In this document: positions 6,018 to 15,470 of the stretch, one piece after another
How positions within the stretch are numbered: the first letter of the stretch is position 1
Layout of the letters: every line of letters starts with the position of its first letter
Assembly: GCA_025455685.1 (NCBI GenBank)
Contig: JALOMB010000014.1
Location: 1 to 35,985 of the forward strand
Direction: 5' to 3'
From: Chitinophagales bacterium
Lineage (GTDB): Bacteria > Bacteroidota > Bacteroidia > Chitinophagales > JADJOU01
DNA: 35,985 bases
The notes under the pieces: generated by a model
Told to the model about the DNA's origin: nothing
Databases searched by the model: none
What the model saw: only the letters and a program-made list of their open reading frames with translations
Program-made: the position numbers and the translations under genes

Positions 6018-6560
6018 TTACTTAAAACTCTTATCAATTAATTTAATGATATCCGAGGTGACATTAGCTTTAGGATCGATATATGCTAAGTTTTTGATCA
6101 TGGTCTCGAGCTTATAGAGTACTTCGATTTTATTTTCTTTGCAGTATTTAGCTACTAAATCATTGACTTTATTGAGCAAACCACCCATTTTATTTAGGTA
6201 AATGCTTTCATATTCTTCTTCTTTTAACTTGACTTGTTTGTCGATTAGTTTTGCTTCTTCAAGCAAAAGATCCCATTTTTTCTTTTCTTTTTCTTGTAAT
6301 AAGCTTGGAATACTACTAACTTGGACATCTTTAGGAATTTTATTTTCATTCAAAAACAAATCTACTTTTTTATTAAGGTTTTCCCTTAGGATTTTAATCT
6401 CGCTTTCATATCCTTTTTTGATAGAATCAATTTCTCTTTGTGCTCTTGAATAACCAGGAGTGGCTTTTAGCAATAGTTCCTCATCTAGAAATGCTGTGCG
6501 CTGTGCTAAAACATTGCTCAGAATGAAAAAAGACAAAAAAGAAATCAAAATTCGGGTCAT
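6018..6560 (-). CDS. OmpH/Skp-family periplasmic chaperone
   Basis: 180 aa. A signal peptide (residues 1-19, ending NVLA before QRTAFLDEE) is followed by a long charged coiled-coil core from about 35 to 150 (repeated E, K and L, for example QREIDSIKKGYESEIKILRE), and a short conserved end with VLYKLETMIKNLAYIDPKAN and VTSDIIKLID. That is the Skp/OmpH layout: a small beta core from the N- and C-terminal ends and two long tentacle helices. Skp chaperones hold unfolded outer-membrane proteins in the periplasm. The gene follows two tail-fibre-like secreted proteins (19-base gap) and is transcribed with them, suggesting a dedicated role for their passage or trimer folding; this is inference. The family call is firm. 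Confidence 0.85.
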   Translation of the reverse strand: MTRILISFLSFFILSNVLAQRTAFLDEELLLKATPGYSRAQREIDSIKKGYESEIKILRENLNKKVDLFLNENKIPKDVQVSSIPSLLQEKEKKKWDLLLEEAKLIDKQVKLKEEEYESIYLNKMGGLLNKVNDLVAKYCKENKIEVLYKLETMIKNLAYIDPKANVTSDIIKLIDKSFK

Positions 6561-6579
6561 AGGTTATAAATTTAATAAA

Positions 6580-7722
6580 TTAATCTCCTAAATACATATA
6601 AACATTGAAGTTTAATGTCATAGGTTTAATATTTAAGGGTTGTTGTGGACCTGAATTTAACCTCAAAGTACCTGATATACTGTGATTATGCTCTCCACGA
6701 ACATCTGACCATAGATTTCCGATATCTACTAGATGGTTGTGATTTCCTGCAAATCCCGTATTTCTTTTCTGAGCTCCTGTTCTAGCAGGCCCTCCTGCTT
6801 GAATTAAAACCCAACCTACATAGCCACAACATCCATCATCCCAATAAGTATGATTATGGTTTCCATTAATACTAGTATTCCTATTTGTCGATGGAATATA
6901 ATGATTATGATTCCCTGTAAGATTTGAAGTTGCATTAATGCTAAAAGCATTGGTAGGTAAATTATTATTTTGAATCAAGAGCTCATCTGAACCCTTGAAC
7001 GTACCTAAGGGCTGACCATTCTGTGAAAAAATCACATCTGTAGCATTAGGTATATTATTGCCTATGCCTATTACATTAGCCTGAACTTGCTGCGTAGCGG
7101 TTAAAAGACTTTTTGCTCTACCGTCGAGTTTTATCCAGCCTTCGTGATCTGAAGTAAGATAACTGTATTTAATATCTCCAAAAACAGGAATATAAGGATC
7201 TGTCCAGTTTGGTGCTGAGATATTTCCTTGACTAGTCAGCACTTGTCCATAGTTACCGGGATCATTATTGGGCAAAAGCATATTCTTGAAGACAATATTT
7301 CCATTGACATCCAAGCGCTGCAATGGGGTATTGGTGCCTATTCCGACTCTATCATTGAGACCATCGACACTAAAAGTAGATACATCTAAACTAAACATAT
7401 CGACACCACTGCCTTGAAACTGGAGTTTATGTGCTGCATTAGTAATCCTTATCTCTGTTTCTCGATTTAAGCCCCCTTCTAAATCTAATCTATTAAACGT
7501 ATCATTTAAGGTAATTCCGTTAGCTCCTTCTGTAGCATCTTTTAGCCCTTGTCCCCAAAAAGCATTTCCTTTATCATCTACACGTAATGTCTTATATAAT
7601 CCAGCTCCTGGGGTAATCATAATAGAATCTATCCAATGTCTCTGTGCTATCGTTTCGAGAGGGATTGCAAAACACACTCCTAGATAAGCCAAAATTGAAA
7701 AAGAAAGAAGTTTAGAACTCAT
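6580..7722 (-). CDS. Secreted tail-collar/fibre-tip-like protein, downstream paralogue
   Basis: 380 aa from the ATG at 7722 (a TTG at 7725 adds one residue). A signal peptide ends at about 27 (ETIA before QRHW). The next third is head-repeat material including RVGIGTNTPLQRLDVNGNI near 126-144. A collar-type segment follows (FGDIKYSYLTSDHEGWIKLDG near 182-202), then four His-Asn-His sites in GNHNH or GEHNH contexts between about 271 and 348, around a YWDDGCCGYVGW block, and the end FNVYMYLGD. That end and the HxH spacing recall the phage tail-collar/tip domains, where HxH motifs bind metal in a trimer. It is a clear paralogue of the gene at 7735-8886, which lies 12 bases upstream. The gene is host chromosomal in context: no other phage genes are near. 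Its ligand is unknown. Confidence 0.75.
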   Translation of the reverse strand: MSSKLLSFSILAYLGVCFAIPLETIAQRHWIDSIMITPGAGLYKTLRVDDKGNAFWGQGLKDATEGANGITLNDTFNRLDLEGGLNRETEIRITNAAHKLQFQGSGVDMFSLDVSTFSVDGLNDRVGIGTNTPLQRLDVNGNIVFKNMLLPNNDPGNYGQVLTSQGNISAPNWTDPYIPVFGDIKYSYLTSDHEGWIKLDGRAKSLLTATQQVQANVIGIGNNIPNATDVIFSQNGQPLGTFKGSDELLIQNNNLPTNAFSINATSNLTGNHNHYIPSTNRNTSINGNHNHTYWDDGCCGYVGWVLIQAGGPARTGAQKRNTGFAGNHNHLVDIGNLWSDVRGEHNHSISGTLRLNSGPQQPLNIKPMTLNFNVYMYLGD

Positions 7723-7734
7723 CAATACTTATAG

Positions 7735-8886
7735 TTAATCTCCTAAATACAGAAATACATTGACACTCATAGTTCTTGGTGTAATCACTATAGGCTGTTG
7801 GGTAGCATCAGTGTTGATTCTAACCGTACCGGTAATCGTATGATTGTGTTCTCCACGTGTATCCGTCCAAACGTTTCCTACATCCACAGTATGATTGTGA
7901 TTGCCATTCCAATCTGAACCTCTATTTGTAGCATCTCTTCTAGCTGGTCCACCTCCTTGAATTCCAACCCAACCCACTGTACCACAGCACCCATCATCCC
8001 AATAGCCATGCTGATGATTTCCATCCGTTGATGTCCATCGATTCGTACCGCCTACATAATGATTATGATTTCCTGCATTTCCAGATGTAGCGTTAATAGG
8101 ATATGCGGTGGTAGGTAGCTGAAAAGTATTGATAATTCTGGTGTTTTGACCTACGAAAGCCCCGATAGGTGCGTTATTCTGTGATAAAATAGCATTGTCT
8201 GCATTCGGTATATTGGCACCGATACCAAGGAAATTTGCTATATTTTGCTGAGATGGCGTTAATGTATTGACTGCACGACCATCGAGTCTAATCCATCCGG
8301 AATGATCTACAGGCTGAAAGCCTAATTTGACATCCCCAAAATTTGGCTTGTAAGTATTTCTCCATACAGGCGCTTTGTCAGGTCCTGAGCTCGTGAGGAC
8401 TTGTCCGGCTGTACCAGGTAAATTATTGGGCATTAAGGCACCCGTAAATCTAATATTTCCATTTACATCTAAGGCTTGCTGCGGACTATTGGTGCCAATT
8501 CCTATTCGATTATTATTAGCATCAAGACTAAAGGTAGTCCCATCGACACTAAAGACATCGGTACCTGTAGCTAATACCCTAAATTTATTTGTATTGCTTA
8601 AATTGGCAATTGTAGTCAATCTATTGAGCGTACCGCCTAATTCGACTATTTTACCATTCATTGTCAAACCATTACCAGCCTGAGTGCTGTCTGAAGGCAG
8701 GTCTCTCCATGAGGCTAGTCCATTTGCATCAGACATGAGAACTTTGTTTGAAGAAGCACCAGGAAGAATAACTAATGAATCAATCCATTGTTGCTGCGCT
8801 TTGATTTCTTCTAAGCAAAAAAACAAACTTAGCAAAATTCCAAAAATCGCATGAAGTTTGTTAACCGTTCGTTTTTCTATATTCAT
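7735..8886 (-). CDS. Secreted tail-collar/fibre-tip-like protein, upstream paralogue
   Basis: 383 aa. A signal peptide ends at about residue 30 (EEIKA before QQQW). It shares the whole plan of its downstream neighbour: an IDSLVILPGASSNKVLMSDA start, RIGIGTNSPQQALDVNGNI at 127-145, FGDVKLGFQPVDHSGWIRLDG at 183-203, and histidine sites HNH at 274-276, HQH at 291-293, HNH at 330-332 and HNH at 347-349, around YWDDGCCGTVGW, ending NVFLYLGD. One HNH has become HQH. The two proteins align along their length, so they arose by tandem duplication. No T9SS sorting domain is visible at either C-terminus. This is the first gene of a three-gene minus-strand operon with the Skp-like gene at the end. Whether it forms a surface fibre is inferred from the family only. 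Confidence 0.75.
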   Translation of the reverse strand: MNIEKRTVNKLHAIFGILLSLFFCLEEIKAQQQWIDSLVILPGASSNKVLMSDANGLASWRDLPSDSTQAGNGLTMNGKIVELGGTLNRLTTIANLSNTNKFRVLATGTDVFSVDGTTFSLDANNNRIGIGTNSPQQALDVNGNIRFTGALMPNNLPGTAGQVLTSSGPDKAPVWRNTYKPNFGDVKLGFQPVDHSGWIRLDGRAVNTLTPSQQNIANFLGIGANIPNADNAILSQNNAPIGAFVGQNTRIINTFQLPTTAYPINATSGNAGNHNHYVGGTNRWTSTDGNHQHGYWDDGCCGTVGWVGIQGGGPARRDATNRGSDWNGNHNHTVDVGNVWTDTRGEHNHTITGTVRINTDATQQPIVITPRTMSVNVFLYLGD

Positions 8887-8930
8887 GTAAGCGAATTTAG
8901 TAATATTAGTTCAAAAATTATGCCAATCTT

Positions 8931-8958
8931 ATTGACACTATAATATTGACACTATAAT
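8931..8958. repeat. Exact tandem duplication of a 14-base unit (ATTGACACTATAAT x2)
   Basis: The unit ATTGACACTATAAT occurs twice back to back between the divergent 8886 (minus) and 9022 (plus) genes. Each copy contains TTGACA and TATAAT, so the first TTGACA and the second TATAAT lie 15 bases apart. This looks like a classical sigma-70 promoter, but Bacteroidota use other boxes, so the resemblance may be accidental. Confidence 0.85.
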
Positions 8959-8988
8959 ATTTTAATGGCAAAGCTAATGAATTTTTTT

Positions 8989-14075: not shown

Positions 14076-15470
14076 CTAATCTACAATCTTACCACCTTTT
14101 AGCTTCTCTGTAAGGGCCAAGAATGCTTCTATCTCATTGTCTCTAAGTAGTTTGGCTTGAGATGGCCAGGTAGTCGGATCGTGAAAAGCAAACTTAGGAC
14201 CTGAATTTCGCAACATTTCTTGAATTAAATTTGCGTCTGTTTTTGCTAAATCACTAAATGAGAAGATATTATTCTGATTTAGTATTTTCTGAATAGCAGG
14301 ACCAATTCCTTCTACAAGCGTTAAATCGTTTTGCGTAAACGATTTTGGAAAACCTTTTATTGGTTTTTTAAGTTTAGTAATGTTTTTTTCATCTTCTTCA
14401 ATTTTCACCATTTTGCTTTCGTCAACTTCAGCTTTTGGAAGTTCTAAATCTATAGAAGGATTTTGGTTATTTTCATCATGAATAGTCCCTTGAAAATCTT
14501 TAGGTTTTATGGATAAATCTTCTTTTATCTCGACCTTTGGTGTTGATATATCCGCATTTACATCGATTTTATTAGGCTGAATAGATACATCTTCTTTTAT
14601 TTCTACTTTAGGCGTTGATAAGTCCGAATTTACATCGATTTTATTAGGCTGAATAGATACATCTTCTTTAATTTCTACTTTAGGCGTTGATAAATCCGCA
14701 TTTACGTCAATTTTATTAGGCTGAATAGATACATCTTCTTTTATCTCTACTTTTGGCGTTGATATATCTGCTGTTACGTCAATTTTATCCGAATGAATAG
14801 ATACATCTTCTTTTAACTCGACCTTTGGTGTTGATATATCTGCTGTTACGTCAATTTTATCCGAATGAATAGATACATCTTCTTTTATCTCTACTTTTGG
14901 CGTTGATAAATCAGCATTTACGTCTATGTTTTTAGTCTGTACCGATAAATCTTCTTTTAACTCGACCTTAGGCGTTGACAAATCTGCAGTTACGTCTATG
15001 TTTTTACTCTGTACCGATAAATCTTCTTTTAATTCGACCTTAGGCGTTGACAAATCTGCAGTTACGTCTATGTTTTTACTCTGTACCGATAAATTATCAT
15101 TTACCTTTACCGAAGGTGAATTAAAATCAATTTGATGAGACGAGTTTTGGTTTTTTATTTGTGCATTTGCAGCAACCTTGACATCTCTATCATCTAAGTC
15201 TACCTTAGGTTCGAACTTAAAAGCAGGAATATTTAACTGTTTTTCCAAATGCATCAAACGTGCATTAATTTCATCTAATCTATCTACAGAATCTTCCCCA
15301 GCTAGGTTTGAATTTAAAATAATTTCTCGTTTTCGAGTGTGACCGAGAAAATGTCGAAACAAAAAGCCGAGTAATGCCGCAATAAAAAGCATGAGAAAGA
15401 TCTCGATAGAGGCATCTGTTCTATCGTATCTAGCCAAAACTGAGTTTTCGAAAATAGCGAGAAGTTTCAT
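14076..15470 (-). CDS. Membrane-anchored repeat protein with C-terminal helix-hairpin-helix domain
   Basis: 464 aa, no family recognised for the whole protein. A transmembrane helix is at about 22-40 (IEIFLMLFIAALLGFLF) followed by basic residues (RHFLGHTRKREI), which predicts that the rest is cytoplasmic. A short coiled-coil-like stretch (about 63-80) leads to a region of eight 24-residue repeats, residues 129-320, built on IDVxADxSTPKVExKEDxS. A charged linker follows, then at about 385-464 a domain with LTLVEGIGPAIQKILNQNN and a NEIEAFLALTEKLKGGK end, the helix-hairpin-helix (EGIGP) type found in DNA-binding or protein-binding small domains. It overlaps nothing and lies downstream of an OmpA-domain gene (18-base gap) in the same direction. 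Function unknown; a link between membrane and nucleic acid is one inference. Confidence 0.7.
   Translation of the reverse strand: MKLLAIFENSVLARYDRTDASIEIFLMLFIAALLGFLFRHFLGHTRKREIILNSNLAGEDSVDRLDEINARLMHLEKQLNIPAFKFEPKVDLDDRDVKVAANAQIKNQNSSHQIDFNSPSVKVNDNLSVQSKNIDVTADLSTPKVELKEDLSVQSKNIDVTADLSTPKVELKEDLSVQTKNIDVNADLSTPKVEIKEDVSIHSDKIDVTADISTPKVELKEDVSIHSDKIDVTADISTPKVEIKEDVSIQPNKIDVNADLSTPKVEIKEDVSIQPNKIDVNSDLSTPKVEIKEDVSIQPNKIDVNADISTPKVEIKEDLSIKPKDFQGTIHDENNQNPSIDLELPKAEVDESKMVKIEEDEKNITKLKKPIKGFPKSFTQNDLTLVEGIGPAIQKILNQNNIFSFSDLAKTDANLIQEMLRNSGPKFAFHDPTTWPSQAKLLRDNEIEAFLALTEKLKGGKIVD
14511..15086 (-). repeat. Eight tandem 72-bp coding repeats (24 aa each)
   Basis: Within the minus-strand gene, residues 129-320 are eight 24-aa units, each 72 bp. 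They fall in homogenised groups: two with VQSKNIDVTADLS, one with VQTKNIDVNADLS, two with IHSDKIDVTADIS and three with IQPNKIDVN (A or S) D. Neighbouring copies differ by few bases, so recent unequal exchange is likely. Alternating hydrophobic residues suggest beta strands. Confidence 0.9.

Follow-up and report, generated by a model that had tools for sequence, protein, structure and literature searches.

The question raised by this locus is whether a bacterium encodes, for its own use, secreted fibres with a phage-type tip together with a chaperone for their folding. The window (the whole 35,985-nucleotide stretch of Chitinophagales DNA analysed here, from an assembly that is 85.9% complete and in 161 contigs, and whose gene content and relatives indicate Bacteroidota) contains two tandem fibre genes, A and B, followed by a gene of the OmpH/Skp family. 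The explanation that we favour, with slightly more confidence than doubt, is that A and B are secreted homotrimeric fibres of the T4 gp37 type belonging to the bacterium itself, with a metal-containing needle and with folding assisted by the OmpH protein.

The locus and the anatomy of the fibres

The three genes run along the minus strand from 8886 to 6018 (Table 1), with gaps of 12 bases between A and B and 19 bases between B and the OmpH gene. The upstream neighbour of the set, a fatty-acid hydroxylase gene, is divergent and the downstream neighbour, YgjP, is convergent, so that A, B and the OmpH gene look like a single operon; scans for promoters and terminators added nothing to this. The other neighbours identified in the window (subtilase, RecJ, an ABC ATPase, PSP1 and an ECF-type sigma factor) are also chromosomal, and no phage genes were recognised around A and B in the wider window, in agreement with the ordinary chromosomal setting originally described. 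With these neighbours and with signal-type N-termini, A and B do not have the character of members of a phage tail. A perfect 14-base tandem repeat, TATTGACACTATAA (8930-8961, 2.3 copies), which is possibly regulatory, lies in the short stretch that separates fibre gene A from the divergent hydroxylase gene. Elsewhere in the window a 72-base tandem repeat of 7.7 copies (14512-15068), within an open reading frame at 14076-15470, encodes a region of 24-residue repeats.

Table 1. Positions in the window of the three genes and of the parts of their products
Feature	Position	Strand	Details and basis
Fibre gene A	7735..8886	-	383 aa; open reading frame; tip profile E 2.3e-73
Fibre gene B	6580..7722	-	380 aa from ATG, or 381 aa from a possible TTG start one codon earlier; open reading frame
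OmpH/Skp-family gene	6018..6560	-	180 aa; Pfam OmpH E 5.6e-12, above cut-off
A signal-type N-terminus	8797..8886	-	residues 1-30, junction KA/Q; by eye from translation
B signal-type N-terminus	7645..7722	-	junction IA/Q; by eye
OmpH signal-type N-terminus	6504..6560	-	junction LA/Q; by eye
A stalk motif GIGTNSPQQALDVNGNI	8452..8502	-	A/B alignment; PHROG fibre-family matches to the stretch
B stalk motif GIGTNTPLQRLDVNGNI	7294..7344	-	A/B alignment; PHROG matches
A tip (collar, needle arms, apex, closing strand)	7735..8340	-	residues 183-383; tip profile
A HxH site 1	8059..8067	-	HNH 274-276
A HxH site 2	8008..8016	-	HQH 291-293
A apex between arms, with YWDDGCCG	7900..8007	-	A/B alignment
A HxH site 3	7891..7899	-	HNH 330-332
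A HxH site 4	7840..7848	-	HNH 347-349
B tip	6580..7182	-	tip profile
B HxH site 1	6901..6909	-	HNH 273 (381-aa numbering)
B HxH site 2	6850..6858	-	HNH 290 (381-aa numbering)
B apex between arms	6742..6849	-	A/B alignment
B HxH site 3	6733..6741	-	HNH 329 (381-aa numbering)
B HxH site 4	6682..6690	-	HNH 346 (381-aa numbering)

The open reading frames and their alignment confirmed that A and B are tandem paralogues of 383 and 380 residues with the predicted motifs, YLGD ends and signal-type N-termini. They are 53% identical overall and 58% identical in the tip, and a tree of 59 tips groups them as sisters with full support. Each consists of a signal-type N-terminus, a stalk and a C-terminal tip of about 200 residues, in that order; the N-termini of A, B and the OmpH protein, read by eye, all resemble signal peptides with an alanine-glutamine junction. 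The stalks have in common the motif GIGTN(S/T)PxQxLDVNGNI and match phage fibre families (PHROGs) weakly, with E about 1e-4 to 1e-5. The tip begins with a collar-like opening, GDxK...DHxGWxxLDGR, recognised by eye, followed by two HxH sites, an apex in which YWDDGCCG lies between sites 2 and 3 of both proteins, two further HxH sites and, last, a closing strand with YLGD at its end. Neither fibre was given a family name by Pfam or NCBIfam. The opening, together with weak fold matches in a viral library, gives the tips a likeness to phage tail collar proteins and to the microcystin-dependent protein MdpB, whereas neither A nor B matched Pfam Collar (PF07484) at E 1 or below.

The OmpH gene and the proposed export of the fibres

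The gene starting 19 bases past B, for which the role of a dedicated chaperone had been proposed, does belong to the Pfam OmpH family (PF03938; 46.5 bits against a cut-off of 32.4), as do the Skp/OmpH periplasmic chaperones. It differs from these in being divergent and in lying beside fibre genes, after B, rather than in the canonical place after BamA, outside the phylum's usual BamA-OmpH-OmpH context. A single-sequence model of the protein is helical, with no significant match in the PDB. The source genome has five OmpH matches: a pair on contig C17 before MurI, one on C146 after the ribosome-recycling factor (both neighbours named by eye), the gene described here and a fifth on C10. The last of these (L116 869-1402), which is the window protein's best match in its own genome at 25% identity, lies 22 bases after the end of another fibre gene (L116 1-846). 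That fibre gene contains GIGITNPLSRLHVNGEI, has its start cut by the contig end, and encodes a C-terminal head that differs from those of A and B and has no Pfam match. A third fibre-linked case was found in a Flavobacterium MAG (L073), where two stalk proteins flank an OmpH gene (Pfam 3.7e-14).

At about 45 other related loci no OmpH gene was found within the flanks examined, which extended up to 8 kb each way at the named loci (less at contig ends), up to 6 kb at viral loci and about 1.5 kb at several loci from whole genomes. Whole-genome searches gave no close relative of this OmpH protein in the sister genus. When 198 phylum and 150 order genomes were searched with a profile built from the three OmpH proteins linked to fibres, there were many matches, and the 30 that were read in detail looked canonical apart from that on C10. 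When 57 OmpH loci were scanned for the stalk motif, in flanks of about 1.5 kb, only C10, already known, was positive; the scan is not a sensitive one, since the motif misses the L073 stalks. The idea of a dedicated chaperone is supported only in part. OmpH genes also accompany the C10 and L073 fibre genes, but none was found at the other related loci within the flanks examined, and the loci read or scanned from the phylum and order genomes yielded no new fibre-linked case. The link of OmpH to fibres is rare and is not a rule of the tip family, and yet it is probably real in the source genome.

It is quite possible, although the balance is slightly against it, that A and B are fibres as we propose and that the OmpH gene is a general extra copy of Skp, there by chance, so that the fibres fold without it. 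The failure to find OmpH genes at most related loci within the flanks examined, the presence of five in the source genome and the canonical appearance of the loci read from the phylum and order searches speak for such a copy. It is less easily reconciled with two of the five own-genome genes trailing fibre genes by 19 and 22 bases, for which a rough, post hoc estimate with a guessed gene number gives an expectation of 0.04, or with the third linked gene in L073, which brings the observed number to three against 0.2 expected overall on similarly rough, post hoc grounds and guessed gene numbers.

With regard to the destination of the fibres, no anchor, outer-membrane route or export signal beyond the N-terminus was recognised for A or B by Pfam and NCBIfam. 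Type IX export was considered and dropped, as Pfam detected no C-terminal type IX sorting domain (Por_Secre_tail or CHU_C) in either protein, though type IX cargo is present elsewhere in the source genome. The missing anchor and sorting domain would suit fibres that are periplasmic, or released as soluble binders (for example, as decoys against phage or rivals), instead of displayed adhesins. We think this rather unlikely, the long stalk being suggestive, if only indirectly, of display away from the base. Surface display, metal binding and chaperoning, which our preferred explanation brings together at this operon, are plausible.

The tip and its likeness to T4 gp37

Searched against the PDB, a nine-tip profile matches the T4 gp37 receptor-binding tip, whose structure is solved (2XGF), with E 5.9e-6, and hhalign aligns the tips with T4 gp37 over the needle with E 1.2e-7 and a probability of 94%. 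Both matches lean on biased composition. A 50-row tip profile loses the match to 2XGF in the PDB, and gp37 was missed in a single-protein PDB search. The spacing of the HxH sites was therefore examined as a separate line of evidence.

The number of HxH sites per tip ranges from none, in six tips, to seven, and tip length increases by about 11 residues per site (r = 0.83, n = 59 tips). In 13 of the 14 tips with four or six sites, the spacing of the arms is mirrored about an apex of variable length. The four-site pattern of A and B (17/39/17) recurs in nine further tips, with arms matching within two residues in eight of them; the spacings include 12/41/12, 12/46/12, 14/42/13, 14/38/13, 13/40/11, 17/46/17, 17/51/17 and 17/48/17. 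All three six-site tips are exactly mirrored (17-17/46/17-17, 17-17/44/17-17 and 17-12/51/12-17). The arm spacing of the own-genome tip C160 does not fit the pattern. A permutation test of the mirrored spacing, with C160 left out and relatedness ignored, gave p about 1e-4. In T4 gp37 the spacing at the centre is 14/37/14, while the outer sites are not matched likewise. The simplest reading of these spacings is that the HxH sites would lie on two antiparallel arms in register, the chain passing down the needle and back.

The T4 likeness claimed in the original prediction is supported by the 2XGF profile match, by hhalign, by the mirrored spacing and by homology over the whole tip to a protein of Vibrio phage phi 3 (AJF40815, 566 aa). 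The homologous part is the C-terminal end of the phage protein, which aligns over 99% of the tip with E 1e-7; its gene adjoins a tail-protein gene. Three viral loci (L040, L042 and L043) also carry whole-length tip homologues. Unlike A and B, these phage proteins are without signal peptides (by eye) and lie beside structural genes in phage genomes. With gp37 itself, the tips have in common an HxH needle with matched central arms, a C-terminal hydrophobic strand and, by sequence, the order of parts. They differ in being carried on a secreted host protein and not on a virion, and in belonging to a family whose tips have from none to seven HxH sites; for A and B the trimer and the iron of gp37 would be predictions. 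By analogy with NIAFNYIVRLA of gp37, the best interpretation of the hydrophobic YLGD end is a closing collar strand rather than an anchor.

An alternative that we consider improbable makes the HxH tract a Gly/Asn/His-rich repeat without bound metal, its resemblance to gp37 being convergent low complexity. The composition bias in the gp37 match and the many related tips with few or zero HxH sites would fit such a repeat, but simple repeat growth would not be expected to give the order-reversed spacing 17-12/51/12-17 or the paired changes in the two arms, and the phage homology spans the whole tip. We keep to the needle, with one metal ion per HxH level as the simplest reading by analogy. HxH motifs from three chains form one octahedral iron site in R-pyocin fibres and gp37 (PMC6116203), and seven irons are reported for gp37 (PMC11705849), the same as the number of HxH sites in the gp37 needle. 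R-pyocin fibres, in which the three-chain motif is an established metal site (PMC6116203), are a different fibre in a different setting, likened to A and B by the motif and not by a sequence match.

A monomer model of tip A built from 50 sequences is weak (mean pLDDT 65, pTM 0.36). Foldseek found no match for it in the PDB; in a viral library its matches, to phage fibres and to collar proteins, were weak. Poor monomer models are to be expected of an intertwined trimer, but the poor quality is no evidence for a trimer. Among the seven tips of the source genome the apex is the least conserved part (mean pairwise identity 0.25 compared with 0.33-0.38), as would suit a binding head. The apexes of A and B do not differ from each other to any special degree.

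Distribution of the tip family and the proposed fibre

The seven own-genome tips are spread over four contigs, and the tree of 59 tips gives no support to a single origin for them. Whole-genome searches found no tips in the sister genus. At E 1e-6 a tip is present in six of 396 sampled phylum genomes, the source genome included, which makes the family a patchy one. When genome contigs were scanned with a single protein, no relative emerged, and the nine-row alignment was too diverse for such scans; a four-tip alignment gave 56 loci, about 40 of them full relatives and mostly from Bacteroidota (Flavobacteriaceae, Weeksellaceae, Crocinitomicaceae, Chitinophagaceae and Hymenobacter). Nearly all of these full relatives have a signal-type N-terminus and most have a stalk; host encoding together with a secretion-type N-terminus holds for almost all the Bacteroidota relatives that were read. 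Their nearest neighbour genes include those for Peptidase_S74 or Lcl_C proteins and some type IX cargo. Tandem tips occur also in L048, L051, L054 and L081. The original prediction had counted prophage homologues lacking signal peptides against itself; such homologues do exist in phages, but they are a minority. That A and B are prophage remnants or phage-derived cargo rather than a working bacterial fibre is improbable, for, while some phage proteins terminate in tips of this family, the frames here are intact, the N-termini are signal-type, the neighbours are chromosomal with no phage genes recognised nearby, and many Bacteroidota relatives share the secreted form.

Three observations concern particular loci. 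At the Crocinitomicaceae loci L048, L049 and L051 the tips have between four and seven HxH sites each, and those of L048 and L051 form tandem arrays; these are good cases for comparing metal count with motif count. A tip in a MAG labelled Deltaproteobacteria (L080 4701-8459) hardly differs from two Bacteroidales tips, from either bin contamination or transfer. Near-identical phage-type fibre genes on many contigs of Candidatus Arsenophonus triatominarum (L087-L095) are weakly similar to the tip; that in L088 is Gp10_C by Pfam.

The working bacterial fibre that we favour would be made as follows. A and B, judging from N-termini read by eye, would be secreted into the periplasm, where their operon's OmpH/Skp-like product would keep hold of the chains until they trimerise, probably as homotrimers, with metal being loaded into the needle. 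One ion, probably Fe(II), would sit at each HxH level of the trimer, giving up to four per trimer. A stalk of the phage-fibre type would carry the tip, in which the chain is predicted to pass from the collar down the needle to the apex head, and back in register to the closing collar strand. The fibre would then be displayed or released with the apex as its binding end, and the ligand that the apex may bind would be on another cell, on a surface or on a phage. Of this scheme, the sequences themselves show the gene content, the homology to gp37 and phage tips, the mirrored HxH ruler and OmpH beside fibre genes at three places; the other steps are inferred. Against this explanation as a whole we have counted the composition bias, the loss of 2XGF with 50 rows, the weak monomer model, the six members without HxH sites, the related loci at which OmpH was not found and the lack of a recognised anchor or export signal beyond the N-terminus. 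More tentatively, and with doubts that outweigh our confidence, we suggest that bacterial surface fibres of this kind are distributed patchily across the phylum, with phage-type metal needles of adjustable length, a Skp-like chaperone in the operon in some cases and an unrecognised export route.

The tip is a known phage module. What appears to be new is its use on secreted, chromosome-encoded stalks, the variable number of HxH levels and the occasional linkage to OmpH; in the open-licence literature, represented mostly by titles and abstracts, we found no description of host-encoded gp37-type tips or of fibre-linked OmpH. With the mirrored HxH spacing, any genome can be tested for such needles simply from its sequence; if the proposal is correct, the HxH count predicts the number of ions per trimer. 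Assistance by a Skp-type protein in the folding of a soluble trimeric fibre would extend the presumed role of this chaperone family, and the proposal as a whole would call for caution in taking every Bacteroidota 'tail fiber protein' annotation as prophage. If true, bacteria would be using, on their own secreted fibres, the tip by which phages recognise them.
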